Assembly: GCF_012849215.1 (NCBI RefSeq)
Contig: NZ_CP051682.1
Span: forward strand, 1,302,001 to 1,366,000
DNA length: 64,000 bases
DNA from: Mucilaginibacter robiniae
Lineage (GTDB): Bacteria > Bacteroidota > Bacteroidia > Sphingobacteriales > Sphingobacteriaceae
Direction of reading: 5' to 3'
Made by a program: the position numbers and the translations under genes. Numbering within the stretch: the stretch's first letter is position 1; every line of letters starts with the position of its first letter. This document shows, piece by piece, positions 10,690 through 31,095 of this stretch. Below the pieces are notes generated by a model. It saw only the letters and a list, made by a program, of their open reading frames with translations. It did not search any database and had not been told where the DNA came from.

Positions 10690-11163
10690 ATGAAGCATAC
10701 AGAAATTAAATATCACAAACATCTGCTGTCTGCAGCGGCAGTACTTATCTTCATGAGTTCATGCGGCGGTACGAGCGACGAGGACCTTCAGAAAAAAGTG
10801 ACTCAAAAGTTACAGCAGAATCCGCAGTTTAAAGAGATTGGTGCTACTGTTAAAGATGGCGTAGTTACCCTGAGCGGTAATTGCGAAAATGGCGACTGCG
10901 ACTCTCTGGCTGCACAGCAAGTTAAAACCGTGGGTGGAATTAAGAGCATTGACAACCAGATTCATAAACAGGAGAAAACTGATTTGACGCTTCGTACATC
11001 GGTGCAGTCTGTGGTAAGCAAGTATGACGGTGTACAGGCGGACGTAGCAGCTGGTGTCGTAGTGCTTCGGGGAAGCATTGACAAAAAGGACGTAAATTCA
11101 CTGATGACGGAGCTGCAGGTACTCAAGCCCAAGAAATTGGACAACCAACTAGCTGTGAAATAA
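10690..11163 (+). CDS. BON-domain lipoprotein
   Basis: 157 residues with a lipoprotein signal (LIFMSSC, Cys25) and two BON repeats. The first covers residues ~30-95 (VTQKLQQNPQFKEIGATVKDGVVTLSGNC) and the second ~97-157 (LRTSVQSVVSKYDGVQADVAAGVVVLRGSI). Each has the BON pattern of an alpha helix followed by V-x-x-G-x-V-x-L-x-G. BON proteins such as OsmY and DolP associate with the envelope and respond to osmotic stress. Its place between a lipoprotein and an HtrA protease suggests envelope maintenance (inference). Confidence 0.85.
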   Translation: MKHTEIKYHKHLLSAAAVLIFMSSCGGTSDEDLQKKVTQKLQQNPQFKEIGATVKDGVVTLSGNCENGDCDSLAAQQVKTVGGIKSIDNQIHKQEKTDLTLRTSVQSVVSKYDGVQADVAAGVVVLRGSIDKKDVNSLMTELQVLKPKKLDNQLAVK

Positions 11164-11225
11164 GACATTGTGCGTTCATGATGCCCTGATTTCCGAAACG
11201 TGTTTTTTTTATCATACTGGAATAA

Positions 11226-12740
11226 ATGCTGATGAACAAGTGGGGAGTTATTTTCTTAACCATCCTGATTGCGGCTGGAGTAAGCGTAGCCAGCTTTAAA
11301 ATTATGGAACGCAGTTTTCACGCTGTTGCCTTTAGAGATACAACGGGAAAAATTAGCCTGGTGACTGGTGGAAGCCGTGACGCAGACTCCGGAGCAGCAG
11401 TTTATCCGAACCTTACCCACGCCGCAGCAATAGCTTCCAGTCAGGTGGTGCATATCAAGGTTACGATGTCAGAACAAGCCTCTGCTTCCGGTATCGCGGT
11501 TCCGAGGTATTACGGACCACGGCGGCAAACGGCCCCTGTGATGGCTTCCGGGTCCGGCGTAGTGCTGAGCCAGGATGGCTACATCATAACGAATAACCAT
11601 GTGGTAGAAGATGCATCCCGCATGCAAGTGGTGTTAACAGATAAACGTAACTATACAGCTAAATTAATTGGCCGAGACCCTAATACTGACCTGGCACTGA
11701 TCAAAATTAATGCTCAGGGATTAAACCCTGTTAAACTGGGTAATTCAGATCAGGTAGAAATCGGGCAGTGGGTGCTGGCTATCGGTTATCCGTTTTCCCT
11801 AAATACCACTGTAACGGCAGGTATTGTAAGTGCAAAAGAAAGAAGTATAGGTATCATAGGTCATCATGAAGATGAACAGCAAAACAGCGACCGAGGCGCC
11901 TCTGCCATAGAAGCCTACATCCAGACGGATGCGGCTATCAACCCGGGGAACAGCGGCGGTGCCTTGGTGAATACTAAAGGCGAGCTTATTGGTATTAATG
12001 CTGCCATAGCTTCCCAAACCGGTGGATACGAAGGTTACGGCTTTGCTATCCCGGTTAACCTGGTCCGAAAGATTGTGGATGACCTGCGTCGGTACGGCAC
12101 CGTTAAAAGGGGTTATCTAGGTGTTGTCTTTCCGTCACCAGTTACCGAAGAGCAGGCATTAGCAGAACGGGGCATCAGTCCGGGCAGTATCAATGGAGTT
12201 TATATCACCGGTGTGCGCCCGGGTAGTGCTGCTGCAGTGGCGGGCTTAAAAGAAGGCGACATCATACAGCAGATTGACGGACATGCCCTCAATTCATCAG
12301 TAGAGCTTTCCGAACGTATTGCTCGGCATCACCCGGATGATAGGGTAACCCTCGCCTACTCCCGAAAGGGTAAATCAACAACAACTGCGGCTATCCTAAA
12401 GGGAGAAGCAGCCGCCACGCGAAATACAGCGACAGAAGAAGCAGGCTTAAACGATATTTATCATAAACTGGGGGCCCGCTTTGCGCCGCTCGATGGCCAG
12501 CAGAAACAGAGGTACCAAATAGGCTCAGGTATGCTGGTTACAGCGATAGCACCGGGCGGTTTTTTTGAACAAATCGGCATTCAGCCCGGGGCTATTGTGG
12601 TTAATGTAAACGGTATACAGGTAAATGATCCGGTACAGCTGGCTAAAGCGCTAACCGCAGCTGCCAGTGGTACGATCAGGATTGCCTGCATTGCGCCCGA
12701 TGGCTCAAGGATCATGTTCAATTTGTCCCTGGGTACTTAA
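11226..12740 (+). CDS. HtrA/DegP-type periplasmic serine protease
   Basis: 504 residues. An N-terminal hydrophobic signal or anchor (residues ~7-25) is followed by a trypsin-like domain with the complete catalytic triad: His125 in NNHVVEDA, Asp155 in DPNTDLALIKI and Ser243 in NPGNSGGALV. Two PDZ domains follow: the first around residues 295-375 (RGYLGVVF, VRPGSAAAVAGLKEGDIIQQIDG), the second around 425-500 (IAPGGFFEQIGIQPGAIVVNVNG). The domain order is that of DegP/DegQ, which degrade or refold damaged envelope proteins. An ATG two codons downstream could also serve as start. The gene follows two envelope lipoprotein genes on the same strand. Confidence 0.92.
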   Translation: MLMNKWGVIFLTILIAAGVSVASFKIMERSFHAVAFRDTTGKISLVTGGSRDADSGAAVYPNLTHAAAIASSQVVHIKVTMSEQASASGIAVPRYYGPRRQTAPVMASGSGVVLSQDGYIITNNHVVEDASRMQVVLTDKRNYTAKLIGRDPNTDLALIKINAQGLNPVKLGNSDQVEIGQWVLAIGYPFSLNTTVTAGIVSAKERSIGIIGHHEDEQQNSDRGASAIEAYIQTDAAINPGNSGGALVNTKGELIGINAAIASQTGGYEGYGFAIPVNLVRKIVDDLRRYGTVKRGYLGVVFPSPVTEEQALAERGISPGSINGVYITGVRPGSAAAVAGLKEGDIIQQIDGHALNSSVELSERIARHHPDDRVTLAYSRKGKSTTTAAILKGEAAATRNTATEEAGLNDIYHKLGARFAPLDGQQKQRYQIGSGMLVTAIAPGGFFEQIGIQPGAIVVNVNGIQVNDPVQLAKALTAAASGTIRIACIAPDGSRIMFNLSLGT

Positions 12741-12800
12741 AACAAAACTTCTTGAAAAGGACAACCCGGCAACTGGTAAAGTACATTAACAAACTCGTAT

Positions 12801-13409
12801 ATGACCGATATAACAGATAGGCCGCACAGCAATACCATCCTGTACTGGCTGAGTGGATTCATTGTTGTAGGCCTGCTTGCGGTTGGCGGACAGTATGTAT
12901 ACTGGAAGCTTGCAGAAAATTCCGGAAGCAAAGCCGGCCACAGCGTGGCGGTACGGTCAGCAAACAATCAACTTTCATCAGCTATTTACCGCTACGAGCA
13001 ATGGTTGATGGTTTTACCTGCACGAAAGATGACGTTTGATCACAACCTGACGAAAACAGGTTTGTATAGGATCGCCGATGTGCTTTCTGCGTTACCAGAT
13101 TCCACCGCATCCGAGACACAATTCCAGGTACATGCGGAAGTTATGTCGATCCGCCATCTGGCAGATTCACTTACGTTCAACTGGAAAAGTGGCCGGCATG
13201 CGGATATGATAAAAAAAGCATTTTACATAACAGCGGATGTTGTAGACACCCAGCGGGCAAATAAACTGCAGACAGGGATTTCTTCTACGGCAGCGTTAAG
13301 AGCTAAAATAGACGTAATGGATGAAAAAACATTAACACTTAACCAGAAAGGAACAGTAAGGGATGTTTTTGCGGAGGTGGGAACTTTGTTCAGAAACATA
13401 GCGCAATGA
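12801..13409 (+). CDS. Small single-pass membrane protein, unknown function
   Basis: 202 residues with one membrane segment near the N-terminus (residues ~14-33, YWLSGFIVVGLLAVGGQYVY) and a soluble, mostly helical remainder. I do not recognise a family. The predicted topology is a cytoplasmic N-terminus and a periplasmic body. It follows the HtrA gene by 60 bases and may belong to the same stress unit. Codon use matches its neighbours, so the frame is likely real. Confidence 0.6.
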   Translation: MTDITDRPHSNTILYWLSGFIVVGLLAVGGQYVYWKLAENSGSKAGHSVAVRSANNQLSSAIYRYEQWLMVLPARKMTFDHNLTKTGLYRIADVLSALPDSTASETQFQVHAEVMSIRHLADSLTFNWKSGRHADMIKKAFYITADVVDTQRANKLQTGISSTAALRAKIDVMDEKTLTLNQKGTVRDVFAEVGTLFRNIAQ

Positions 13410-13633
13410 TTGCTTGAGATGGGAGCAGTGCAAAGCCTGTGTGTACAGGTGTAACTGATTGATTTTTATTATGCGAAAACTATTCAAGTTGTGGCTGATA
13501 GCTTTACAATGTCCGGTAGCCTGATGCTGCTGCAATGAAGATTGCTGTAAGGAGTGTTTGGCGGTTGGCTCGGCGCCTAATCATTTATCATGGCTGCCTA
13601 TTCAAAACTCCTATGATATAAACAGGATAATTT

Positions 13634-14602
13634 ATGCCTCAGATTGCAGGAAAAACAGAGTTGTTATGGCTTAAAGCGCAGACCATTTTTGACGCTGCTA
13701 CGCCGCAGGCGGAGAAGATAAAGGGTATAACCAACGGCTTTATCTGGGCTTCATCTGCTATCATGCTGGTGGTTGTGGCTCTGACCATTTACATTCCAAT
13801 TAAATACCGCGCCAGAGCCGGCAGCCCCGAACCTAAACAACTGGGCGGCCACCGGGCAATGGAGGCGCTGATGATCAGCATCCCCCTGCTGCTGGTGATC
13901 GGCTTTTTCTTCTGGTCAGTAAAGGTAATGAGCGCTATTTTACCTGCACACGCCAACCGCAAGCCTGATGTAATTATTACCGGTCACCAGTGGTGGTGGC
14001 AGGCCAACTACCCGGCGGCAAAAGTTACCGCTGCTAACGAAATTCATTTACCCGTTGGCCGCCCGTTACTGCTGCAGCTAAACGGTGCCGATGTGATACA
14101 TGATTGGTGGGTGCCGGCTTTAGGTGGTAAAATGGATATGATACCCGGCATCAGGAACTTTTTGTGGTTGACCATCCATAAGCCGGGCGTATATGAAGGG
14201 GCTTGCAGCGAATTTTGCGGCCAGGAACATGCCTGGATGCGCATCAGGGTCGTTGCCCAATTGCCGGCAGATTATCAGCGCTGGCTGGTCGCCAACGCAA
14301 CCGACGAAGAATTACCTGTTGATTCCATGGCCAAAGCCGGGCAGGCCTTGTTCGTCAACGCTTCGTGCAGCAGTTGTCACCGCATCAGCGGCACCAGTGC
14401 TGCTGGCTTACAAGGGCCCGACCTGACCCACTTCGGCAGCCGCAGCACTATGCTGGCCGGCATGATGGCGAATAACCCGGAAAACCTGTACCGCTGGCTG
14501 ACAGATCCGCAGAAAGTAAAATCCGGCGCACATATGCCCCGCTTTATTTTTGGCAGCGATAGCTTGCGTGCTTTAACCGCCTATTTATCACACCTGAGAT
14601 GA
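13634..14602 (+). CDS. coxB: Cytochrome c oxidase subunit II with fused cytochrome c domain
   Basis: 322 residues. Two membrane helices (~37-55 and ~77-98) precede the cupredoxin domain with all CuA ligands: His156, then Cys191, Glu193, Cys195, His199 and Met202 in CSEFCGQEHAWM. A C-terminal cytochrome c domain carries CSSCH (245-249) with Met301 as probable sixth ligand. Aromatic residues in GHQWWWQANYP are the usual electron-entry patch. This is a caa3-type arrangement: electrons arrive at the tethered heme c and pass to CuA. It opens a tightly packed operon; the stop overlaps the subunit I start by four bases. No classic signal peptide or lipobox is seen, so the N-terminus is probably a membrane anchor. 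Confidence 0.93.
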   Translation: MPQIAGKTELLWLKAQTIFDAATPQAEKIKGITNGFIWASSAIMLVVVALTIYIPIKYRARAGSPEPKQLGGHRAMEALMISIPLLLVIGFFFWSVKVMSAILPAHANRKPDVIITGHQWWWQANYPAAKVTAANEIHLPVGRPLLLQLNGADVIHDWWVPALGGKMDMIPGIRNFLWLTIHKPGVYEGACSEFCGQEHAWMRIRVVAQLPADYQRWLVANATDEELPVDSMAKAGQALFVNASCSSCHRISGTSAAGLQGPDLTHFGSRSTMLAGMMANNPENLYRWLTDPQKVKSGAHMPRFIFGSDSLRALTAYLSHLR

Positions 14603-16293
14603 TGAAAGAAGGTTTTTTGGAAGTACCCGAACCAGAGGAACCTATTCCTGACCTAAGCCTGAGCAGCAGTCAGGGCATTTTGCAATGGATATCTTCGGTT
14701 GACCATAAGCAGTTAGGCATCATGTACCTGTGGTTGTCTGTGTTGTTCCTGGTTATCGGCGGCATCGAGATTTTACTGGTGCGCCTGCAACTGGCTGCAC
14801 CGAACAATCACTTCATTGCCCCCGAAATGTATAATCAGCTGTTTACCATGCATGGCACGACCATGATTTTCTTTGTGCTGACCCCGGCTATTTTTGGCTT
14901 TGCTACCTACCTGCTGCCTTTAATGATCGGTGCTAATGATCTGGCTTTCCCGCGGCTGAATGCCTTTAGCTTGTGGGCTACTTTTTTTGGCGGCGGCTTG
15001 CTCTACTTCAGTTTCATCGCCGGCGGCGCACCTGATGCTGGCTGGTTTAATTATGCGCCGCTCAACCAGTACAATTATTCATCTTCCCTGGGTATTGATT
15101 ATTATTGTTCGGGCCTGCTGTTTGCCGGTATCGGTACCGTAACCGCATCGGTTAATTTTATTGTTACCATACTCAAATACCGGGTCAGTTCCATGAGCCT
15201 GAAACAGATGCCGCTGTTTGTATGGATGATCCTGATCAATTCTTTTCTGGTACTGGCCGCCTTTCCCTCGCTCAATGCTGCACTGATTATGCTGCTGCTT
15301 GACCGGCAGCTGCATGCCCACTTTTTCAGTGCGACCAGCGGTGGTTCAGCTATCCTGTGGCAGCATTTGTTTTGGCTGTTCGGGCACCCGGAAGTCTATA
15401 TATTGATACTGCCCATCTTCGGCATTTTTTCAGAGGTTTTCCCGGTGTACAGCCGCAAGCCGATATTTGGGTACGCTTTTGTAATTGGTTCAGGTATTGC
15501 CATTGCCTTGCTGGCTTTTGGCGTATGGGTACACCATATGTTTGCTACGGGGCTGGGCAATACGGTAAACAGCTTCTTTGCCGCCAGCAGTCTCTTAATA
15601 GGTGTGCCCACCGGCGTTAAAATATTCAACTGGCTGGCCACCATGCATGGGGGCGCTGTCCGTTTCCGGGTATCAATGCTGTTCGCTATTGCGTTTCTGG
15701 TGGAGTTTACCATCGGCGGCCTGAGCGGTGTTTCCTTTGCCGTGGTGCCTATCGACTGGCAGTTAACAGACACTTATTATGTAGTCGCGCACCTGCACTA
15801 TGTCTTTATCGGCGGCAGTCTGTTCGGTCTGTTCTCCGGCTTATTTTATTGGTTTCCAAAAATGAGCGGCCGGATGCTGGACGAGCGGCTGAGCCGGTGG
15901 TTCTTCTGGCTCATGGTGGTCGGCTTTAACCTTACTTTTTTGGTTCAGCATGCGCTCGGCGCCATGGGCATGCCGCGCCGGGTGTACACTTATCCGGATC
16001 TGCCGGGCTGGGGCATACTGAATTTGATATCCACCATTGGCGGGTTCCTGATGGCTGTATCCGTGGCACTGTTGATTTACATTTTGGTGAAAGCCATCCG
16101 TAGCGGGGAAAAGGCATCCTCAGACCCCTGGGATGCCAACACGCTGGAATGGATGACGTCTTCACCGCCGGCCCTGCAGAACTTTGACAGGGTTGTACCG
16201 GTGAAAAGCACCCGGCCTTACCGTGACTATAAAAGGCCGGATGATGCCGACTGGAACCGGCCAAACAAATATGGCAATATAGATGGGAAATAA
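14599..16293 (+). CDS. coxA: Cytochrome c oxidase subunit I
   Basis: 564 residues, about 12 membrane helices. The redox ligands are all present: His85 (TMHGTTM) and His400 for the low-spin heme, His398 for the high-spin heme, and the CuB site His263 (FGHPEVY, with Tyr267 as the cross-linked tyrosine), His312 and His313. GHPEVY with Glu265 marks a type A1 heme-copper oxidase, and GANDLAFPRLNAF supplies the entrance of the D proton channel. It reduces O2 to water and pumps protons across the inner membrane. The start codon overlaps the coxB stop (ATGA). Confidence 0.95.
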   Translation: MMKEGFLEVPEPEEPIPDLSLSSSQGILQWISSVDHKQLGIMYLWLSVLFLVIGGIEILLVRLQLAAPNNHFIAPEMYNQLFTMHGTTMIFFVLTPAIFGFATYLLPLMIGANDLAFPRLNAFSLWATFFGGGLLYFSFIAGGAPDAGWFNYAPLNQYNYSSSLGIDYYCSGLLFAGIGTVTASVNFIVTILKYRVSSMSLKQMPLFVWMILINSFLVLAAFPSLNAALIMLLLDRQLHAHFFSATSGGSAILWQHLFWLFGHPEVYILILPIFGIFSEVFPVYSRKPIFGYAFVIGSGIAIALLAFGVWVHHMFATGLGNTVNSFFAASSLLIGVPTGVKIFNWLATMHGGAVRFRVSMLFAIAFLVEFTIGGLSGVSFAVVPIDWQLTDTYYVVAHLHYVFIGGSLFGLFSGLFYWFPKMSGRMLDERLSRWFFWLMVVGFNLTFLVQHALGAMGMPRRVYTYPDLPGWGILNLISTIGGFLMAVSVALLIYILVKAIRSGEKASSDPWDANTLEWMTSSPPALQNFDRVVPVKSTRPYRDYKRPDDADWNRPNKYGNIDGK

Positions 16294-16834
16294 ACTGATG
16301 ATGAAGCTGGTGGTGGGTACCGAGGCGATGTTTTTCGTGTCGCTGATTATGGCGTTCGTTTACTTTTCATTCGGGCCGGGCTTCAAGGCGCAGCTGTTGC
16401 AACATCTGGATACGAAAACCACGGGCATTTTTACCGCGCTGCTGTTGAGCAGTAGCTTTACCTATTGGCGTGCCGAAAGCAATTATGAGCAGGGCCGGAT
16501 GGGCCGCCTGAAATTGTGGCTTATCCTGACACTGGCGTTAGGTATCGTCTTCCTGTTCGGGCAGGGCAGTGAATACCTGAAGTTGCTTAATGCGCATGTC
16601 AGCATCAGCAGCAGTTCGTTTGGTACCAGTTTCTTTACGCTGACCGGCTTTCATGGCCTGCATGTTTTTGCCGGGCTTGTCATCATCGGCATCATTACTT
16701 GCCTGACCTTTCTGGGTGATTATGACCAGGGGCAATCCAGCATTATTCAAACGATAGGCATTTACTGGCACTTCGTAGATATTGTATGGGCGGTTGTTTT
16801 TCTGATTGTTTACGTAGCACCTTATTTTGTATGA
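16283..16834 (+). CDS. coxC: Cytochrome c oxidase subunit III
   Basis: 183 residues with five membrane segments, the short form of subunit III. The family motifs are TEAMFFVSLIMAFVYFS in the first helix, FFTLTGFHGLHVFAGL and IYWHFVDIVWAVVFLIVY at the end. This subunit stabilises subunit I and helps proton uptake by the D channel. Its start overlaps the coxA end by eleven bases. Met at residue 6 or 7 could also be used, but the first ATG gives the standard operon overlap. Confidence 0.9.
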   Translation: MGNKLMMKLVVGTEAMFFVSLIMAFVYFSFGPGFKAQLLQHLDTKTTGIFTALLLSSSFTYWRAESNYEQGRMGRLKLWLILTLALGIVFLFGQGSEYLKLLNAHVSISSSSFGTSFFTLTGFHGLHVFAGLVIIGIITCLTFLGDYDQGQSSIIQTIGIYWHFVDIVWAVVFLIVYVAPYFV

Positions 16835-17661
16835 TGACACCGATGAAACCCCTGCTTTGGGAATGGCATTTTAATTTGCTGATCATGCTTTTGGCTATGG
16901 GATTGGTTTACCTTTATTACCGGTTAGCCGGGTATAAGCACCGGCAGAACAATATCATTTTTTGCATTGCACTGTCGCTGTTCCTGCTAACCGAATGCTC
17001 ACCCCTGCACTTTTTAGGCATGCACTGTTATTTCAGTGCGCACATGATCGCTCATGTCATCTTGCTGCTGGTTTGCGGGCCGTTACTGGTGATGAGCCTT
17101 CCGGCGGGTTCCGGCACCCATCAAACAGTGGCCGCTATGTCTGGCTTTATTCGAAAACACAGCTGGCTGGCCTGGTGCAGCGGCGTGGCTGTGATGTGGT
17201 TCTGGCATATACCGGCGGTATTTGATGCTTCCTTCGTGCATATGGGCAGCTGGCTTAGCCCCGTTCCGCTTTTACACGGGGGTAGTATGCTGTTGGCCGG
17301 AGTGATCTTTAGTTGGCCGTTGTTCGGGCCGGACAAGAAATTACATATACATCCGCTATCGGGCGTATTATATTTGTTTACCGCTTGTGTGAGCTGTTCC
17401 CTGCTGGGGCTGCTCATCACTTTTGCGCCGCTCACCACCTATCATCATTATGTAAGCAATACCATGAAGATGGGCAGCACGAACCCGTGGCATATAACCC
17501 AGGCTACCGACCAGCAGGTCGCCGGCCTGATTATGTGGGTGCCTTGTTGCTTTGTTTACCTGACCGGGTGCCTGTACCTGCTGCAACGCTGGTTTGCGGA
17601 AAGCCCTGCTCAAACTGAAACCGTTTCTATTCATTTACATACCCCTGTAATCCATGATTGA
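16831..17661 (+). CDS. ctaG: Cytochrome c oxidase assembly factor CtaG (caa3 type)
   Basis: About 276 residues from the ATG at 16831, which overlaps the coxC stop as ATGA; a start 45 bases upstream would lie inside coxC and is less likely. Seven membrane segments and the motifs LHFLGMHCYFSAHMIAHVILLLVCGPLL and LLHGGSMLLAGVIFSWPLFGP identify the caa3_CtaG family. These proteins are needed to build the CuB centre or to insert copper into caa3 oxidases. Several His and Met residues in membrane segments fit a copper role. Its place directly after subunits II-I-III is the usual one. Confidence 0.88.
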   Translation: MMTPMKPLLWEWHFNLLIMLLAMGLVYLYYRLAGYKHRQNNIIFCIALSLFLLTECSPLHFLGMHCYFSAHMIAHVILLLVCGPLLVMSLPAGSGTHQTVAAMSGFIRKHSWLAWCSGVAVMWFWHIPAVFDASFVHMGSWLSPVPLLHGGSMLLAGVIFSWPLFGPDKKLHIHPLSGVLYLFTACVSCSLLGLLITFAPLTTYHHYVSNTMKMGSTNPWHITQATDQQVAGLIMWVPCCFVYLTGCLYLLQRWFAESPAQTETVSIHLHTPVIHD

Positions 17662-17878
17662 GCCTGCAAACTCTTACCCGGAAATCAAGCCTGGCCCCGA
17701 CTGGGAGAAGGCGAAGCCGGAAGTATTACCCAAGCCTACCTACTGGCCTTTCTTTCTGGCGATGGGTTTGGCCTTCACCTTTTGGGGATTGCTCACCACC
17801 TGGGTTATCCTGACCGCCGGCTTGTTGATTTTCGTCGTTTCCCTGATCGGGTGGATTAACCTATTACGCCATGAATGA
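17654..17878 (+). CDS. Small two-helix membrane protein in the oxidase operon
   Basis: 74 residues. A Pro-rich start (KPGPDWEKAKPEVLPKPTYWPFFLAMG) leads to two membrane helices (~30-47 and ~50-69). It overlaps both ctaG and the Rieske gene by eight bases, so it is almost certainly translated. Size, topology and location suggest a small accessory subunit like oxidase subunit IV (CoxD). The sequence itself carries no diagnostic motif, so the assignment rests on context. Confidence 0.65.
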   Translation: MIEPANSYPEIKPGPDWEKAKPEVLPKPTYWPFFLAMGLAFTFWGLLTTWVILTAGLLIFVVSLIGWINLLRHE

Positions 17879-18377
17879 AGATACCACCGATGAAAAACGA
17901 AGAGGCTTTTTAGTAAAGCTGAGTCTGGGCCTGGCCGGCCTGGCCGCAGCTGTAGCCGGTGTGCCGGTTCTGGCTGCCTTGTTTGCACCGCTGATTGAAA
18001 AGACACCGCAGGTATGGCGTAATGTAGGCTTGTTGGATGATTTTCAGATTGGCACCACCAAACTGGTCACTTTTGAGAATGCCAACGCTGAGGCATGGGC
18101 CGGCGTAACTACTCATACGGCCGCCTGGCTCAGGCGCGATGCCGACCATAAATTTACGGCCTTCTCGGCTAATTGTACTCACCTCGGCTGCCCGGTCCGC
18201 TGGGAAGCAGGTGCACAGCTATTCATGTGCCCTTGCCACGGTGGTGTGTATTATAAAGACGGTTCGGTAGCTGCCGGGCCGCCGCCCAAATCACTGGTGC
18301 AGTACCCTGTACGCATTCAAAAAAACCAGGTGCAGGTACAAACATCACCAGTGCCTATTACCAACATCAGCGCATAA
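17871..18377 (+). CDS. Rieske 2Fe-2S protein
   Basis: 168 residues. The N-terminus has a twin-arginine-like start (KRRGFLVKLSLGLAG) followed by one hydrophobic helix, consistent with folded export and anchoring. The cluster-binding boxes are CTHLGC (Cys102, His104, Cys107) and CPCHGG (Cys120, Cys122, His123), complete with the disulfide cysteines, followed by the Pro loop GPPPK. It passes electrons from quinol bound at cytochrome b to cytochrome c. It overlaps the preceding small gene and is followed after six bases by cytochrome b, so the pair is a bc-type complex. Confidence 0.93.
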   Translation: MNEDTTDEKRRGFLVKLSLGLAGLAAAVAGVPVLAALFAPLIEKTPQVWRNVGLLDDFQIGTTKLVTFENANAEAWAGVTTHTAAWLRRDADHKFTAFSANCTHLGCPVRWEAGAQLFMCPCHGGVYYKDGSVAAGPPPKSLVQYPVRIQKNQVQVQTSPVPITNISA

Positions 18378-18383
18378 GCCAGC

Positions 18384-19775
18384 ATGAAAACCCTGAAAAA
18401 AATATGGCACTGGATTGATGACCGCAGTGGTTTTACCGAGATATTCGGGCCGCTGCTGGGTCATCTGGTACCGCCGGGTGCTAAGTGGAGTTATGTGTTC
18501 GGCAGCGCCACATTATTCTGCTTGGTGTTACAGGTCATAACCGGAGTAGCACTGTCCTTACTCTACCAGCCATCTTCTGCGGAAGCGTACCAGTCGTTGC
18601 AATTCATTACCCACCAGGCGGCGTTCGGCAACATCCTGCGGGGTATGCACTATTTCGGCGCTTCATTTATGATCATTATGGTAACTGTTCACATGATCAG
18701 GGTTTACCTCACCGCTGCTTACAAGTTTCCACGGGAAATGGCCTGGATCAGCGGTGTACTGTTGTTCTTCCTCACGATAGCCATGGGCTTCACCGGTCAG
18801 CTGCTACGCTGGGATTCAAACGGGGTTTGGTCATCGGTTGTAGCCGCAGAACAATTGGGACGATTGCCTTTTATCGGCAAGTGGGCGGCACGTTTACTGT
18901 TGGGCGGCGATACCATTGGCGGGCATAGCCTGAGCCGTTTTTTTTCCTACCATGTATTTATTATACCGGCTATTATATTCCTGTTTGTGGGCTATCACCT
19001 GATGCTGGTCATCCGCAATGGCATCTCAGAACCGCCTGAAGCCGGACGGCTAGTAGACCCCAAAACCTACCGGCAATGGTACCAGGATATGCTGAAAAGT
19101 AAAGGCGTACCTTTCTGGCCTTATGCGGCCTGGCGCGATGTCTTGTTTGGAGCCGGCACCATTATTGCCATCATTGGTTTCGCCTATTTTGTCGGGCCGC
19201 CGGAATTGACCACACCGCCCGACCCCGCGCACCTGAACACTACGCCTGCGCCCGACTGGTACATGCTTTCTATCTTTTCCCTGTTTGCGCTCATGCCGGC
19301 CAGGATTGAATCGTACATGATCATCATCGGGCCTACGCTGACAATAATTATTCTGCTGGCCCTGCCTTTTGTTTCCAACAAGGGCGAACGTCACCCGATC
19401 AGGCGGCCATGGGCCGTATTTGGTTCGGCTTGCGTGGTCATATTCGTATTTGCACTGTTCCTGCTGGGCGAAAAATCACCGTGGTCGCCCCGGTTTAAAT
19501 CCAAGCCATTAACTGCCGTTAATATTCATTCCACTAACCCCGAAGTAATGGCCGGGGGAGCGTTATTTTATAAAAAGGGTTGCCTGTACTGCCACCGGAT
19601 AAATGATCAAGGCGGATATAGAGGCCCTAACCTCACGCAGGTCGGCTTACGATTATCCTATGGTGATTTAACCATCCGTATTGTAAATGGCGGCGGCAAT
19701 ATGCCGGCTTACGGGGGTATATTAAGCAAAAAAGAGTTAACGGACATTCTCGCTTTCTTACAAAGCAGAAAGTGA
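18384..19775 (+). CDS. Cytochrome b with fused C-terminal cytochrome c domain
   Basis: 463 residues. Four heme b ligands are visible: His89 and His103 on one helix, His190 and His205 on another. The 14-residue gap in the second pair is that of b6f-like cytochromes rather than mitochondrial bc1. The quinol-site motif is PDWY (residues 290-293). After the last b helices comes a heme c domain with CLYCH (400-404) and Met440 as probable sixth ligand. So cytochrome b and the c-type electron acceptor are one chain, and no separate cytochrome c1 gene is present. It would oxidise menaquinol and feed the caa3-like oxidase encoded just upstream. Confidence 0.92.
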   Translation: MKTLKKIWHWIDDRSGFTEIFGPLLGHLVPPGAKWSYVFGSATLFCLVLQVITGVALSLLYQPSSAEAYQSLQFITHQAAFGNILRGMHYFGASFMIIMVTVHMIRVYLTAAYKFPREMAWISGVLLFFLTIAMGFTGQLLRWDSNGVWSSVVAAEQLGRLPFIGKWAARLLLGGDTIGGHSLSRFFSYHVFIIPAIIFLFVGYHLMLVIRNGISEPPEAGRLVDPKTYRQWYQDMLKSKGVPFWPYAAWRDVLFGAGTIIAIIGFAYFVGPPELTTPPDPAHLNTTPAPDWYMLSIFSLFALMPARIESYMIIIGPTLTIIILLALPFVSNKGERHPIRRPWAVFGSACVVIFVFALFLLGEKSPWSPRFKSKPLTAVNIHSTNPEVMAGGALFYKKGCLYCHRINDQGGYRGPNLTQVGLRLSYGDLTIRIVNGGGNMPAYGGILSKKELTDILAFLQSRK

Positions 19776-19816
19776 GAATCTGAAAAGCATAATTTAAATC
19801 ACTTAAAACCATAACT

Positions 19817-20545
19817 ATGAGATTCAGCAACAAAGTTTGCCTGGTGACCGGCGGCGGTTCAGGCATTGGCAAGGCAACCTGCCTGCGAATGGCGGTAGAA
19901 GGCGGTACTGTCATCGTGATTGACCGGGAAGAAAAATCAGGCATAAAAACGGTGGATGAAATCACCAAAAAAGACGGCCAAGCCATGTTCATCCGGGTAG
20001 ATGTGGGCGTAACGGATGAAATTGAACAGTGTGTCAAGACGGTTGTGGAGAAGTATAAAAAGATAGATGTGCTGGTGAATGATGCCGCCATGATGACGTT
20101 TCAAAAAATCGTAGATCTTTCGATAGCTGATTGGGACCAAGTGATTGACGTGAACCTCCGCTCGGTATTTGCCTTCTGCAAATACTGCCTACCGTATATG
20201 AAAAAGGGGGCGGTGGTTAATGTAAGCTCGGTACATGCCTTCCAGACCGAGCAAACCGTTCTGCCCTATGCTGCCAGTAAAGGCGGTATTGAAGCCTTTA
20301 CGAGGGGATTAAGCCGTGAATACACACATGAACAAGCCCGTTTCAATTGTGTAGCGCCCGGTGCGGTGGATACCCCAATGCTGTGGTCAAACCCGGAGGT
20401 AAAGGATGGTGATGAAAAAATAACCGGGCAAGTTGGCGAGCCCGAAGATTTGGCCGCCGCCATTTGTTTCATGGCCTCGGATGAGGCCCGGTTCGTCAAC
20501 GGCACTACGCTCGTTGTAGACGGCGGACGTTTAGCTATTCTATAA
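19817..20545 (+). CDS. Short-chain dehydrogenase/reductase (SDR), classical
   Basis: 242 residues. The cofactor motif is VTGGGSGIGKATC, an acidic residue at the end of strand 2 (VIDREE) points to NAD(H), and the active site is Ser in VNVSSVHAF with YAASK as Y-x-x-x-K. The third motif is NDAAMM instead of the usual NNAG, with Asn replaced by Asp at the second position. The C-terminus ends with the family's typical VNGTTLVVDGG. The substrate cannot be told. It lies 41 bases after cytochrome b and 19 before the GH1-like gene. Confidence 0.88.
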   Translation: MRFSNKVCLVTGGGSGIGKATCLRMAVEGGTVIVIDREEKSGIKTVDEITKKDGQAMFIRVDVGVTDEIEQCVKTVVEKYKKIDVLVNDAAMMTFQKIVDLSIADWDQVIDVNLRSVFAFCKYCLPYMKKGAVVNVSSVHAFQTEQTVLPYAASKGGIEAFTRGLSREYTHEQARFNCVAPGAVDTPMLWSNPEVKDGDEKITGQVGEPEDLAAAICFMASDEARFVNGTTLVVDGGRLAIL

Positions 20546-20564
20546 ATCTGAAAAATCATCAGCC

Positions 20565-21767
20565 ATGCACAACAAATTTATATTCGCCACCGGCATTGAA
20601 AACAGCTATCCTACCATTTGGAGTGAAGGTAAGAAGATACGTATCGATGAGATGGAGAAAACCGGTCATTACGGCCACTGGAAAGAAGATTTCGGCCTGG
20701 TCAAGGATTTAGGTATCGAGTTCCTGCGGTATGGGCCGCCCTATTACACGGCGCATACCGGCCCCGGCACTTATGATTGGGCAATAGCCGACAAAACGTT
20801 GCAGGAACTGAAGGACTTAGGTATTAGGCCAATACTGGATCTGTGCCATTTTGGTGTGCCTGACTGGGTAGGTGATTTTCAAAATGCCGACTGGCCGCAG
20901 CACTTTGCGGAATATGCCCGCGCTTTTGCACAGCGTTTCCCGGAGCAGCTATTTTACACCCCTGTCAACGAGATTTATGTGTGTGCGATGTTTTCCGGGC
21001 AGTATGGCTGGTGGAATGAATGCCTGAAAACGGAGAAAGGGTTCGTTACCGCACTTAAAAACCTATGTAGAGCCAACGTTTTGGCGATGCAGGCCATTGC
21101 AGAAGTGCAGCCAGATGCGACCTTTATTCAAAGTGAGTCATCCGAATACTTTCATGCCGAAGACCCTGACTGCCGGGCCAAAGCAGATTTTCTAAATGAG
21201 AAGCGGTTCCTGGCACTTGATCTGTCGTACGGGCACCCGGTGAGCGTGGACATGTACCTGTATCTGCTGGACAACGGCATGACCCATGAAGAATACCAGT
21301 GGTTCATGGATAACAATGTTACAAAGGCCAAGTGTATTATGGGTAACGATTATTATGCCACCAATGAGCACCTGGTCCATGCCGATGGCAGCACCTCCGC
21401 TTCCGGCGAAATATTCGGTTATTATATCATCACCCGGCAATACTATGAGCGTTACCGCCTGCCGGTAATGCATACCGAAACGAACATCAGTGAACCTGGA
21501 TCCGTCAGCTGGCTGAAAAAGGAATGGGCCAATATCTACCGGTTTAAGCAGGACGGCTTTCCGATACTGGGTTTCACCTGGTTTAGCCTGCTCGATCAGG
21601 TGGACTGGGATTCGGCATTACGCAACAACGCCGGCAAGGTTAATCCTTTGGGCCTTTATGACCTGAACCGGAAACTACGTCCGGTGGGCGAAGCTTATAA
21701 AAAGCTGATTGAATTGTGGCGGCCGGTACTGGAGAAGGAAAATTTTGGTTTGCAGAAATACCTGTAG
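20565..21767 (+). CDS. Glycoside hydrolase, GH1-like (clan GH-A)
   Basis: 400 residues with the (beta/alpha)8 pattern of clan GH-A. The acid/base Glu lies in FYTPVNEIYV (about residue 133) and the likely nucleophile Glu in MHTETNIS (about residue 305). KDLGIEFLRYGPPYY and GTYDWAIADKTLQELKDLGIRPILDLCHFGVPDW are typical of beta-glucosidase-like GH1 proteins, though the chain is shorter than the usual ~450 residues. No signal peptide is seen, so it is probably cytoplasmic. Substrate unknown; pairing with an upstream SDR suggests a small sugar or glycoside pathway (inference). Confidence 0.75.
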   Translation: MHNKFIFATGIENSYPTIWSEGKKIRIDEMEKTGHYGHWKEDFGLVKDLGIEFLRYGPPYYTAHTGPGTYDWAIADKTLQELKDLGIRPILDLCHFGVPDWVGDFQNADWPQHFAEYARAFAQRFPEQLFYTPVNEIYVCAMFSGQYGWWNECLKTEKGFVTALKNLCRANVLAMQAIAEVQPDATFIQSESSEYFHAEDPDCRAKADFLNEKRFLALDLSYGHPVSVDMYLYLLDNGMTHEEYQWFMDNNVTKAKCIMGNDYYATNEHLVHADGSTSASGEIFGYYIITRQYYERYRLPVMHTETNISEPGSVSWLKKEWANIYRFKQDGFPILGFTWFSLLDQVDWDSALRNNAGKVNPLGLYDLNRKLRPVGEAYKKLIELWRPVLEKENFGLQKYL

Positions 21768-21843
21768 ATTTTTACAAAAGACAATCTATCACCCCTGACA
21801 ACAATTTGAGTACCTCATTTTTCACCTTTAAAAACGAAACATT

Positions 21844-22683
21844 ATGCATTTTTCTGACTCTTTTCTGCCCACGGCCAACAGCGTTGGCATTTCATCGATG
21901 GTGGCCTATTTTTTTATGATTTTTGCAGCTTATGCCTTTCTGGGCGGGTTCATCTTTGCCTGGCTGGGTAAGTCCAGCGTAGCACCCGAGCACCGTACCT
22001 CACGGTACTTTACGGCGATCATTGCCGCGGTAGCCGGGATATCTTATATGCTGATAGCGCATTTTTACCACGAAATGCTCAGTGAGTTATCCCGCCTTAC
22101 CGACCCGGCCAAACGGGAAGAGCTATTAAGGACATCTTACAACGCCATCGGTCAGCTACGATATATTGACTGGTCCGTAACCACGCCGTTGCTATTGCTT
22201 AAAACAGTAGGTATGCTAAAGATCAAGCCCAGCCAGGCCAAAACGGCGATATTCTGGCTATTGTTCGCTGATTTATTTATGGTAATTACCGGCTACATCG
22301 GCGAACAGCAGATCGGCGCTGACGGGCATATCCTGGTAGGTGATAAGCTCATCTGGGGTGCCATATCCACTGTGGGTTACATCATCATTCCAGTTGTGCT
22401 ATGGAACCTGTGGAAACGCTTTAAAGACACCGTGCAACCCGAAGAACGTACCGCGTTTAAATGGCTGGCCCTTTCCACCGTTACCACCTGGGGTGTTTAC
22501 CCGTTAGGTTATATCCTGACCACAGTGGATGGTTTCAATCTGAACTACATTCATATCTCCTTCAGTATATTTGATGTAATCAATAAGGTAGGCGCCGGTG
22601 CGGTGGTTTATCTGGCGGCTAAAAGCGTACTGGAAAAAAAGGTGGCGGATGACGCGGTAGCAGAGGTGCATTTGGTCGATTAA
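21844..22683 (+). CDS. Microbial (type I) rhodopsin, probable light-driven proton pump
   Basis: 279 residues, seven membrane helices. Aligning by hand to bacteriorhodopsin, helix C reads RYIDWSVTTPLLLLK, giving Asp109 (counterion), Thr113 and Lys120 at the proton-donor position: a DTK motif. Lys248 in FDVINKVG is the retinal Schiff-base lysine, with Asp244 four residues before it. His73 in helix B is placed to pair with Asp109, as in proteorhodopsins. Helix E reads LIWGAIST, with Gly172 where bacteriorhodopsin has Trp138; in xanthorhodopsin this glycine opens a window for a carotenoid antenna. A Lys donor is known from Exiguobacterium rhodopsin. No carotenoid or retinal synthesis gene lies in the window. 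It is last on the plus strand after the GH1-like gene (76-base gap). Confidence 0.95.
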   Translation: MHFSDSFLPTANSVGISSMVAYFFMIFAAYAFLGGFIFAWLGKSSVAPEHRTSRYFTAIIAAVAGISYMLIAHFYHEMLSELSRLTDPAKREELLRTSYNAIGQLRYIDWSVTTPLLLLKTVGMLKIKPSQAKTAIFWLLFADLFMVITGYIGEQQIGADGHILVGDKLIWGAISTVGYIIIPVVLWNLWKRFKDTVQPEERTAFKWLALSTVTTWGVYPLGYILTTVDGFNLNYIHISFSIFDVINKVGAGAVVYLAAKSVLEKKVADDAVAEVHLVD

Positions 22684-23070
22684 TCGCTTAACTGGTTGTT
22701 CAACCCATGCATCACTTCCATGTGCGGCAGCGTGATTAGAAGTCATCTCATAAATGGTCAACGCCGTTGATTAGCTTGTTCTGTGCTTATTCACCATGCA
22801 TATCGAAAGTTAATATCAAGTGCTTTCAAGCAATTTTAGGTTATTGTCAACCGAGTGTTTGAGTGCAGATTTGAATTCAGGATATCTGTGAGATATCTTC
22901 TATAAACTATTCATAAATACTCTAAAATAAATTGTATTCCTGGATACTTTGCTAATTCCATACGAGCTTGTTTATAATTACCTCATATTTTTTACCATAA
23001 AATTTAGTATCCAATAGGGTGCCCGTGCATAAGATGGCTTCCGGTAAGATCGTGGGTACTCATGCGCCTT
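22684..23070. other. Gene-free stretch after the rhodopsin gene
   Basis: Convergent intergenic region of 387 bases, clearly AT-richer than the rhodopsin gene. No convincing terminator hairpin, repeat or gene was found. Confidence 0.4.
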
Positions 23071-28775: not shown

Positions 28776-30326
28776 ATGGCTAACACTACGATCAGTATGA
28801 GTAAGATAAGAAAGATCTTAAGGATGTACACCAACGGGCGCAGCATCATGTCTATAGCAGCCCAGGCAGACGCATCCAGAAACACCGTAAAGAAGTATCT
28901 GGCCTCTTTCAAGGAGAGCGGCTTCAGCTTTGATGAAGTCAATGCTTTGAATGATAAAGAGCTGGAAGACTTGTTTGGCAAGGCTAAGGAGCGCTCTCCC
29001 AACAGCCGTATGCAAGCCATGCTGCGCTGCTTTCCCAAAGTAGACAAAGAGCTGAAACGTACCGGTGTTACCCGTCAAATGCTTTGGGAGGCTTATCGTA
29101 AAGAGTTTCCGGACGGTTACCAGTATAGCCAGTTTTGCTTTTATTATACCCAGTGGCAGGCCCGGGTTAACCCTGTGATGCACATCGACCACAAGGCCGG
29201 TGATAAGCTGTATGTGGATTTTGCCGGTCAAAAGCTGAGCATCACAAACCGGGATACCGGGGAGATCATTCCTGTCGAGGTCTTCATCGGCATACTTGGG
29301 GCCAGCCAGCTGACCTATGTCGAGGCGGTCATGAGCCAGCAAAAAGAAGACTTCATTTCCGCTTGTGAGCATACCCTGCATTACATTGGCGGCGTGCCGG
29401 AGGCCATTGTTCCGGACAATCTGAAAGCTGCCGTCACTAAAAGTAACCGTTACGAACCTACGCTGAATGAAACGTTTGAAGACTTCAGCAATCATTATTG
29501 CACGACCATCTTACCTGCCCGGGCATTCCGCCCTCGTGATAAAGCGCTGGTAGAAGGTGCCGTAAGAATCATCTATAGCCGCATTTATGTTCCCCTGCGC
29601 AAGAGCGTTTATCATTCCTTGCAAGAGCTGAATGCCGCTATTCATGAACTGCTGGAAGCCCATAATAACCGGCTGATGCAAAGCCGGCCTTACAGCAGAA
29701 GGCAGCAATTCGAGGAGGTAGAGCGTGAAACGCTTATGCCTTTACCCGTGTTGCGCTATGAGCTTAAAAAGCAGTTTCATGCCACCGTGATGAAAAACGG
29801 GCATGTCAGCCTCGGGCCTGATAAGAACTACTATAGTGTGCCTTACCGCTTCATCGGCAAAAAGATCAAGCTGCTGTATTCCAGCACGACGGTAGAGGCC
29901 TTCTATCATTATGAACGCATAGCCATTCACAAGCGTACCAAGGGGCTGCACCGCTACATTACGGATAAAGACCATCTGGCTTCCACCCACCAGTTCGTTG
30001 CCGAGTGGAACCCGGAAAAGTTCCTGTCCTGGGCCGCATCGATCCATGAGGATGTGCGCCTTTATATCCAGCATATCCTTAGCCGCAGGCACCATGCAGA
30101 GCAGGCTTACCGATCCTGCATCGGTGTGCTGGGCTTTGCCCGTAAAGCCGGGAATGAACGCCTGATCCTGGCCTGCAGAAGAGGCCTGAGTTATGGCATG
30201 TACAGTTACAAGACCATACAAATGATCCTGGAAAAGAACCTCGATCAGTACGAAGAAAGCTTATTTGCCAATGAACTTACCATGCCCGAGCATGATAACA
30301 TCAGAGGCGAAGACTATTACCAGTAA
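28776..30326 (+). CDS. istA: IS21 transposase IstA
   Basis: 516 residues. N-terminal helix-turn-helix (ISMSKIRKILRMYTNGRSIMSIAAQADASRNTVKKYL), then an rve-type integrase core with the first Asp in KLYVDFAGQKLSI and the second in EAIVPDNLKAAVTK, the third acidic residue following in ALVEGAVR. A beta-barrel-like C-terminal region completes it. IstA cuts and joins the element ends with the help of the ATPase IstB. The frame is intact, so the copy may be active. Confidence 0.93.
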   Translation: MANTTISMSKIRKILRMYTNGRSIMSIAAQADASRNTVKKYLASFKESGFSFDEVNALNDKELEDLFGKAKERSPNSRMQAMLRCFPKVDKELKRTGVTRQMLWEAYRKEFPDGYQYSQFCFYYTQWQARVNPVMHIDHKAGDKLYVDFAGQKLSITNRDTGEIIPVEVFIGILGASQLTYVEAVMSQQKEDFISACEHTLHYIGGVPEAIVPDNLKAAVTKSNRYEPTLNETFEDFSNHYCTTILPARAFRPRDKALVEGAVRIIYSRIYVPLRKSVYHSLQELNAAIHELLEAHNNRLMQSRPYSRRQQFEEVERETLMPLPVLRYELKKQFHATVMKNGHVSLGPDKNYYSVPYRFIGKKIKLLYSSTTVEAFYHYERIAIHKRTKGLHRYITDKDHLASTHQFVAEWNPEKFLSWAASIHEDVRLYIQHILSRRHHAEQAYRSCIGVLGFARKAGNERLILACRRGLSYGMYSYKTIQMILEKNLDQYEESLFANELTMPEHDNIRGEDYYQ

Positions 30327-30342
30327 ACACGAATCAAGTCAT

Positions 30343-31095
30343 ATGAATACAAACACTTTAGACAAACTGCGGAAGATGAAGTTCTTCGGCATGTTCCATG
30401 CTTTTCAAAGCAGCCTGGAAACCGGGCAAACAGATCACTACACGGCCGATGAACTCTTGGCCTACCTGGTGGATGCCGAATGGGATGACCGGCATAACCG
30501 GCGTATAGAGCGCCAGATCTATCATGCCAAGTTCCGCTACAAAGCGTCCATTGAAGAGGTGAACTACCAGGCAGAGCGGAGCATTGACCGCAACCTGGTC
30601 ATGCGCCTGGCGGACTGCACCTTCATTGAGCGCAATGAGAATGTGCTCCTGACCGGCAGCACCGGCATTGGCAAAAGCTACATCGCCTCTGCTATTGGTT
30701 ACCAGGCCTGTATGCAGGGCTATAGGGTATTCTATGCCAGTACACCCAAGCTATTTGCCAAACTCAAGATGGCCAAGGCTGATGGCTCCTACATCAAAGA
30801 GATCGCAAAGATTGAACGCCAGCAACTGCTCATACTCGATGACTTTGGCTTGCAGCCTTTTGATGCACAAAACAGGGCTGCCCTGATGGAGATCATTGAA
30901 GACCGGCATGGTAAAGCATCCCTGATCATTACCTCACAGCTTCCGGTCAGTAAATGGCATGAGGTCATCGGTGAAAAAACAATAGCTGATGCAATATTAG
31001 ACCGTATCGTACACAGCGCTCACCGGCTGGATCTCAAGGGTGAATCCATGAGAAAAAAACGCAGGGCTGATGAAAAGGAAATCAGTTACCAATAA
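30343..31095 (+). CDS. istB: IS21 transposition helper ATPase IstB
   Basis: About 250 residues of AAA+ ATPase from the ATG at 30343 (MNTNTLDKLRKMKFFGM). An upstream ATG within istA would add 26 residues unlike the family. Walker A is GSTGIGKSYIASAIG, Walker B LLILDDFGLQPF, and sensor 1 is in SLIITSQLPVSKWHEVI. IstB loads onto target DNA and activates IstA. It starts 16 bases after the istA stop. Confidence 0.93.
   Translation: MNTNTLDKLRKMKFFGMFHAFQSSLETGQTDHYTADELLAYLVDAEWDDRHNRRIERQIYHAKFRYKASIEEVNYQAERSIDRNLVMRLADCTFIERNENVLLTGSTGIGKSYIASAIGYQACMQGYRVFYASTPKLFAKLKMAKADGSYIKEIAKIERQQLLILDDFGLQPFDAQNRAALMEIIEDRHGKASLIITSQLPVSKWHEVIGEKTIADAILDRIVHSAHRLDLKGESMRKKRRADEKEISYQ

Follow-up and report, generated by a model that had tools for sequence, protein, structure and literature searches.

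In the literature covered, it is the rhodopsin of Exiguobacterium sibiricum (ESR) in which proton donation by a Lys has been worked out. In the excerpts of one study, this Lys is described as neutral in the dark, taking up a proton and then handing it to the Schiff base, and a Lys introduced into proteorhodopsin (PR) functions as a donor and one introduced into deltarhodopsin does not (PMC8387761). In the antenna-binding rhodopsins, a Gly at the fenestration is reported to be required for carotenoid binding in Gloeobacter rhodopsin (GR) and Kin4B8 (PMC9151804; PMC12308411, in part), and five fenestration residues of Kin4B8 have been listed, G153, T157, Y204, S208, and Y209 (PMC13093654; PMC12308411, in part). 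Opsins that lack the retinal-binding Lys are already known as such: the excerpts of two papers describe relatives of xanthorhodopsin (XR) in betaproteobacteria and freshwater relatives of FArhodopsins (PMC10308929), with about 600 genes in all (PMC7714340). The clade to which we assign the gene studied here was not encountered in the open-licence literature, and no measurement on it was found there. The Spirosoma literature, in the parts covered, reports that S. linguale has a rhodopsin gene and that S. oryzae has an NDQ pump, neither of which belongs to this clade.

The window, a stretch of 64,000 nucleotides from Mucilaginibacter robiniae, contains a single rhodopsin gene (21844-22683, + strand). 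The gene and the codons discussed below are as follows.

21844..22683, + strand: microbial rhodopsin gene, 279 aa, of the putative Lys-donor (DTK) type (ATG to TAA ORF; Pfam; AlphaFold2 model; structure matches)
22042..22044, + strand: S67 codon, where PR, XR, and ESR have the counterion-pairing His (alignment)
22168..22170, + strand: D109 codon (D85 of bacteriorhodopsin, BR), predicted proton acceptor and counterion (alignment)
22180..22182, + strand: T113 codon (BR T89; alignment)
22201..22203, + strand: K120 codon (BR D96, ESR K96), proposed Schiff-base proton donor (alignment)
22357..22359, + strand: G172 codon (BR W138, XR G156), fenestration glycine (alignment)
22573..22575, + strand: D244 codon (BR D212; alignment; 39/39 in the clade)
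22585..22587, + strand: K248 codon (BR K216), retinal Schiff-base lysine (alignment)

The window protein scored 106.3 bits against the Pfam Bac_rhodopsin model (cut-off 24.6), and no model matched it in an NCBIfam scan. An AlphaFold2 model built from a 63-row alignment reached a mean pLDDT of 93.0 and a pTM of 0.89 (pLDDT 55.9 with a 4-row alignment). The best 50 Foldseek matches were all microbial rhodopsins, headed by the cryorhodopsins CryoR1/R2, as were the best 50 VIA-align matches, which comprised psXR (Z 27.8), ESR (4hyj_B, Z 27.7), and 48 more down to Z 25.3. The overlay on ESR 4hyj_B gave an rmsd of 1.7 over 221 residues, its Z score being tied with that of psXR and near those of many others. 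The structure matches listed also included a chloride pump with bound myxol and a proton pump with bound zeaxanthin. The model and overlays support a rhodopsin fold, not a function; this fold, with the Schiff-base Lys (K248) in the last helix, identifies a microbial (type 1) rhodopsin.

Residues were placed with a MAFFT alignment of BR, XR, GR, psXR, CryoR1, ESR, GPR, and eight loci. BR residues R82, D85, T89, T90, and D96 correspond to R106, D109, T113, T114, and K120 of the window protein, and BR D115, W138, D212, and K216 to D143, G172, D244, and K248; the BR E194 and E204 places are occupied by V228 and I236. K120 lies opposite the ESR Lys and G172 opposite the Gly of XR (Gly156) and GR, a place held by Pro in GPR and Ser in ESR. 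The original prediction had read Asp109-Thr113-Lys120 as an ESR-type DTK motif and Gly172 as the counterpart of BR Trp138, and the alignment with ESR, xanthorhodopsin, and Gloeobacter rhodopsin places all of these residues as proposed. K120 and G172 are retained in all four Sphingobacteriaceae copies, and comparison of the window copy with the paralogue in the same genome gave a dN of 0.10 with synonymous sites saturated, which argues that 21844-22683 is a maintained gene and not a chance frame. A pseudogene reading was ruled out by the intact ORF and the low dN.

Compared with described classes, the window protein shares with ESR (4HYJ) the DTK motif, a Thr90/Asp115-type pair (BR numbering), an Asn before the Schiff-base Lys, and a close model overlay, whereas S67 and G172 are replaced in ESR by His and Ser. 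Of the features that mark the ESR type, the Lys at the BR D96 place is present in the window protein, but the counterion-paired His is replaced by S67. Orthology with ESR was not adopted: ESR grouped with PR (97/88), although a constrained clade of ESR and the window group was not rejected (AU p 0.132). With XR and GR the protein shares the fenestration Gly, a Ser and a Thr at the third and fourth positions after it, and a helix F Tyr; however, XR, GR, and psXR combine a Glu donor with the counterion His and lie in another clade. Assignment to the xanthorhodopsins was therefore rejected on the tree (a separate 39-row clade, 100/100), the donor (K120), and the Ser in place of His; the Gly at the BR W138 place, expected of a xanthorhodopsin and present as G172, is not diagnostic, being found in 94 of 95 sequences. 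Nor is the protein a proteorhodopsin, since it does not group with PR on the tree and has no counterion His. CryoR1/R2 resemble it in heading the Foldseek list, in a Ser at the S67 place, and in an IWGAISTV stretch in helix E, whereas the D109, T113, and K120 places are occupied by Glu, Ala, and Glu in CryoR1. CryoR1 Arg57, which we take to be the buried Arg of helix B that characterizes cryorhodopsins, is replaced by T57, and a cryorhodopsin was rejected on this ground despite the Foldseek ranking (the tree place of CryoR1 itself, on a long branch, is unsure). Lysine-less opsins (Rh-noK) are paralleled by 13 of the 39 members of the clade, but the window protein keeps K248 and is excluded from them.

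The best solved relatives by sequence were XR (E 2.9e-19), CryoR1, ESR, psXR, and GR. Identity was 22-29% to the aligned XR-/PR-type loci (22-27% to the XR type alone) and 20-21% to two NDQ-type loci. Rhodopsins over the cut-off occurred in 29 of 399 genomes of the family, 26 PR-like and three of the window type (the window genome, G151, and G044); the G044 protein is identical to that of L003, a Sphingobacteriaceae lichen MAG. A four-row profile found rhodopsins in 53 of 395 genomes of the phylum, with the window type in three (G000, G760, and G641), and among 345 genomes of the class two gave a match at E 1e-25 (G000 and G641). Searched against plasmids, the window protein retrieved three records, the best at 31%. 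In a further family, f10 (222 genomes), 35 matches above 160 bits came from 31 genomes, and the next match scored 85.8 bits.

The clade of 39 consists of all 35 of these f10 matches and four Sphingobacteriaceae proteins. It was compared with 56 other Bacteroidota loci, which are the ones closest to the query or to the Pfam model, so that this sample leans towards the query's likeness and includes identical or near-identical rows (e.g., L024 and L026). Left out were 26 of the 57 phylum profile matches (one more, which has no locus, is the window copy itself) and 71 of the 74 f10 matches at or below 85.8 bits. Duplicates (L001, L030, L033, and L034) were removed before counting, and L032 was below the cut-off. 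When 20 outgroup rows were included in the tree, all 39 members fell on one side of a long branch with 100/100 support, apart from XR and PR; the trees retained the trait columns, and the long rows were CryoR1, ESR, and GPR. The window protein is thus part of a separate rhodopsin clade, present in a few Sphingobacteriaceae and in family f10, and is not a xanthorhodopsin. On the best tree the Sphingobacteriaceae rows are nested in the f10 rows, which may reflect a transfer from f10 to Sphingobacteriaceae, although the alternative with an f10-only clade was not rejected (AU p 0.151).

The window gene product is probably a retinal-binding, light-driven outward proton pump of this distinct clade, with Lys as the donor. 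The pump residue set is aligned throughout (R106, D109, T113, K120, D244, and K248). In the mechanism we propose, K248 would bind retinal supplied by the genome's own Brp/Blh dioxygenase, and D109, together with D244 and R106, would serve as counterion and proton acceptor. K120 would reprotonate the Schiff base in the fashion of ESR, as a neutral Lys in the dark that first takes up a cytoplasmic proton and then passes it on, and a carotenoid might sit in the G172 opening. The ESR mechanism may not carry over, because S67 removes the Asp-His pair of ESR. As a rule, Leu at the BR L93 place goes with green absorption; this place is occupied by L117 in the window protein and also by Leu in GPR, which suggests green absorption for the window protein.

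The places around the Schiff base vary within the clade. The donor place holds K in 13 of the 39 members, Q in 15, H in 4, T in 3, N in 2, and L in 2, the replacements (Q/H/N/T/L) being found in family f10. The S67 place is S in 25 members, T in 5, V in 5, A in 3, and I in 1, and is His in XR, GR, psXR, ESR, and 54 of the 56 other loci. T114 and D143, the BR T90/D115 places, are kept as this pair in all 13 Lys-donor members and in ESR; the other 56 loci all have Val and Ala/Ser/Gly there. The pairing with a Lys donor may reflect shared descent or a requirement of the Lys donor. The clade offers natural Lys donors free of the counterion His beside close relatives with other donor residues, which allows natural proteins to be compared for the roles of the Lys, the His, and the Thr90/Asp115 pair. 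A group of extra copies in three f10 genomes (L092, L093, and L094) combines a DTT motif with an Ala in place of S67. Two f10 genomes with clade members (G984 and G974) also encode an NDQ-motif rhodopsin of the sodium-pump type (L109 and L110).

Of the 39 members, 26 carry the Schiff-base Lys, and the other 13 have L (4), I (4), V (2), Q (2), or C (1) instead (L076, L080, L082-L084, L086-L091, L095, and L096). Asp or Glu occupies the D109 place in exactly the 26 Lys-bearing members, and A, G, or S in the 13 Lys-less ones; R106 and D244 are conserved in all 39. This strict association supports a working Lys/Asp pair in the window protein. On the tree, the joint loss of Lys and Asp amounts to few independent events (two of two pairs, with no significance). 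The Schiff-base Lys changed at least three times, and a single origin of all 13 Lys-less members was rejected (p 0.0016). The numbers of state changes were three for the Schiff-base Lys, five for the donor Lys, and one for the upstream neighbour described below, with gain and loss indistinguishable. In 13 of the 26 Lys-bearing members, the donor place is occupied by Q, H, N, or T, suggesting that some clade members are not efficient pumps.

Most of the Lys-less genes seem to be under selection, since seven Lys-less pairs had dN/dS of 0.11-0.23; seven Lys-bearing pairs, where computable, ranged from 0.04 to 0.34. The opsin gene of G993 (L096) is split across two frames, and apparent internal stops in some f10 genes were natural gene ends in the five of five inspected. 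Upstream of 29 of the 39 opsins, and on the same strand, lies a gene for a DUF305-type lipoprotein (L036, L068-L070, and L072-L096, family f10), beside opsins with and without the Schiff-base Lys. All five neighbour proteins scanned exceeded the DUF305 cut-off, and four of them also exceeded that of DUF4142. No such gene was found beside the 10-row subclade that includes the window gene, within flanks of ~1.5 kb for L035, L066, L067, and L071 and at least 3 kb for the others; all ten of these proteins have DTK and the Schiff-base Lys. Open-licence papers linking rhodopsins and DUF305 were not found.

We tentatively read the clade as a series, in which a Lys-donor, His-less pump, possibly with an antenna, had its donor replaced and then lost the counterion and the Schiff-base Lys together, repeatedly, giving rise to selected retinal-free opsins that would work with the DUF305-type lipoprotein; the window protein would stand at the intact pump end. 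Because the f10 members range from apparent pumps to Lys-less opsins, under purifying selection and with a conserved neighbour, they provide a handle on the function of retinal-free opsins.

Genes for the pigments are present elsewhere in the genome, and no blh was found within the 64-kb window, where the rhodopsin gene stands apart from it. A second rhodopsin copy, 86% identical to the window copy, lies in a crtY-blh-rhodopsin cluster (L099 4411-7344, G000:C1:4333410-4336343), convergent with blh, an arrangement also found at L003 and L100. Blh scored 166.6 (NCBIfam cut-off 95.25) and CrtI 765.7 bits (cut-off 640), the latter with the model for bifunctional phytoene desaturase/3,4-desaturase. 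The CarR domain of a CarR-type cyclase exceeded its NCBIfam cut-off, giving the genome two cyclase genes, and crtB and crtY exceeded Pfam cut-offs only; crtI, crtB, and the CarR-type cyclase gene are clustered away from the blh locus. With blh, crtI, crtB, and the cyclases, retinal can be made. A crtZ candidate of 161 aa matched Pfam FA_hydroxylase (38.4 bits, cut-off 31) and no NCBIfam model, has histidine boxes by eye, and may supply hydroxylated carotenoids. As CrtI matches a 3,4-desaturase model, other carotenoids are possible, and zeaxanthin may not be the main one.

Whether the pump also carries an antenna is a separate question. Here a carotenoid, most likely hydroxylated, would lie at G172 and pass energy to retinal, which is possible but less likely than not. 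The window protein has the same or a similar residue at four of the five Kin4B8 fenestration places, with G153, T157, Y204, and S208 corresponding to G172, T176, Y223, and T227, and the crtZ candidate could provide the pigment. Kin4B8, which lies outside our alignment and tree, was mapped by way of the XR and GR rows, with T157 placed by its spacing from the Gly, and the XR and GR residues used match the table of PMC12308411; the fenestration was assessed from the alignment. The fifth residue, however, Kin4B8 Y209, is V228 in the window protein, and at the T227 place the relatives L003 and L031 have I or V, Thr being limited to four of the 39 members. The crtZ candidate lacks an NCBIfam match, and the desaturase model makes zeaxanthin doubtful as the main carotenoid.

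The Gly itself, which had been proposed as antenna-type, does lie at the place of XR Gly156, but among the sequences covered it is the usual state there (56 of 56 other Bacteroidota rhodopsins and 38 of 39 clade members) and persists in 12 of the 13 relatives without the Schiff-base Lys, so that G172 is weak evidence for an antenna. Excerpts of a survey of 150 GR homologues give Trp in 24% and Phe in 2% at this place (PMC9151804), which indicates that Gly is common there. A fenestration Gly alone is thus no predictor of an antenna. The combination of a Lys donor with this Gly, thought unusual, does set the protein apart from ESR with its Ser, but it is clade-wide, being present in 13 of 13 Lys-donor members.

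The pump reading must also be weighed against the second copy, because the paralogue beside blh could be the working pump and the window copy a spare being lost. The 86% identity of the two copies and the position of the window copy, where a GC-rich block that lacks blh ends, fit this idea; however, dN between them is 0.10 at saturated synonymous sites and the key residues are intact, which makes it unlikely. On the tree the second copy falls with L031, from another species (97/92), and not with the window copy, which, with the saturated synonymous sites, indicates that the duplication or acquisition was not recent. It is improbable, too, that the window protein is a light sensor with a slow photocycle that signals through partner proteins, for although f10 relatives without the donor lie downstream of a DUF305-type lipoprotein gene (29/39 of the clade), the 10-row subclade with the window gene has no such neighbour in the available flanks and keeps the donor Lys in 10/10, and no transducer gene was noticed in the window's ORF list.

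We therefore retain the proton pump as the preferred reading of the window gene, which lies downstream of two genes on the same strand.

19817..20545, + strand: short-chain dehydrogenase gene, upstream of the rhodopsin gene (Pfam PF13561/PF00106)
20565..21767, + strand: GH1-like glycosidase gene, its end 76 bases upstream of the rhodopsin gene (Pfam PF00232)

A paralogue of the GH1-like gene, 77% identical to it, lies at G000:C1:937119-938315, and relatives occur in 12 of 149 genus genomes, the window genome included. The G+C content per kb is 0.44-0.53 over ~11-23 kb, with the rhodopsin gene near the end of this stretch, 0.41-0.48 over the first 11 kb, 0.48-0.50 over an insertion-element region at 27-31 kb, and mostly 0.34-0.44 after 31 kb; given the values of the first 11 kb and of 27-31 kb, the borders of the GC-rich stretch are not sharp. 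Apparent cytochrome oxidase, Rieske, and cytochrome b genes were noted in it on reading the ORFs, and positions 11000-23000 of the window are a possible island. GC3 is 0.568 for the window rhodopsin gene and 0.461 for the second copy. A two-gene insertion element at 28776-31095 of the window recurs near the carotenoid genes at L117 678-2997, with the same lengths and identical first 90 residues.
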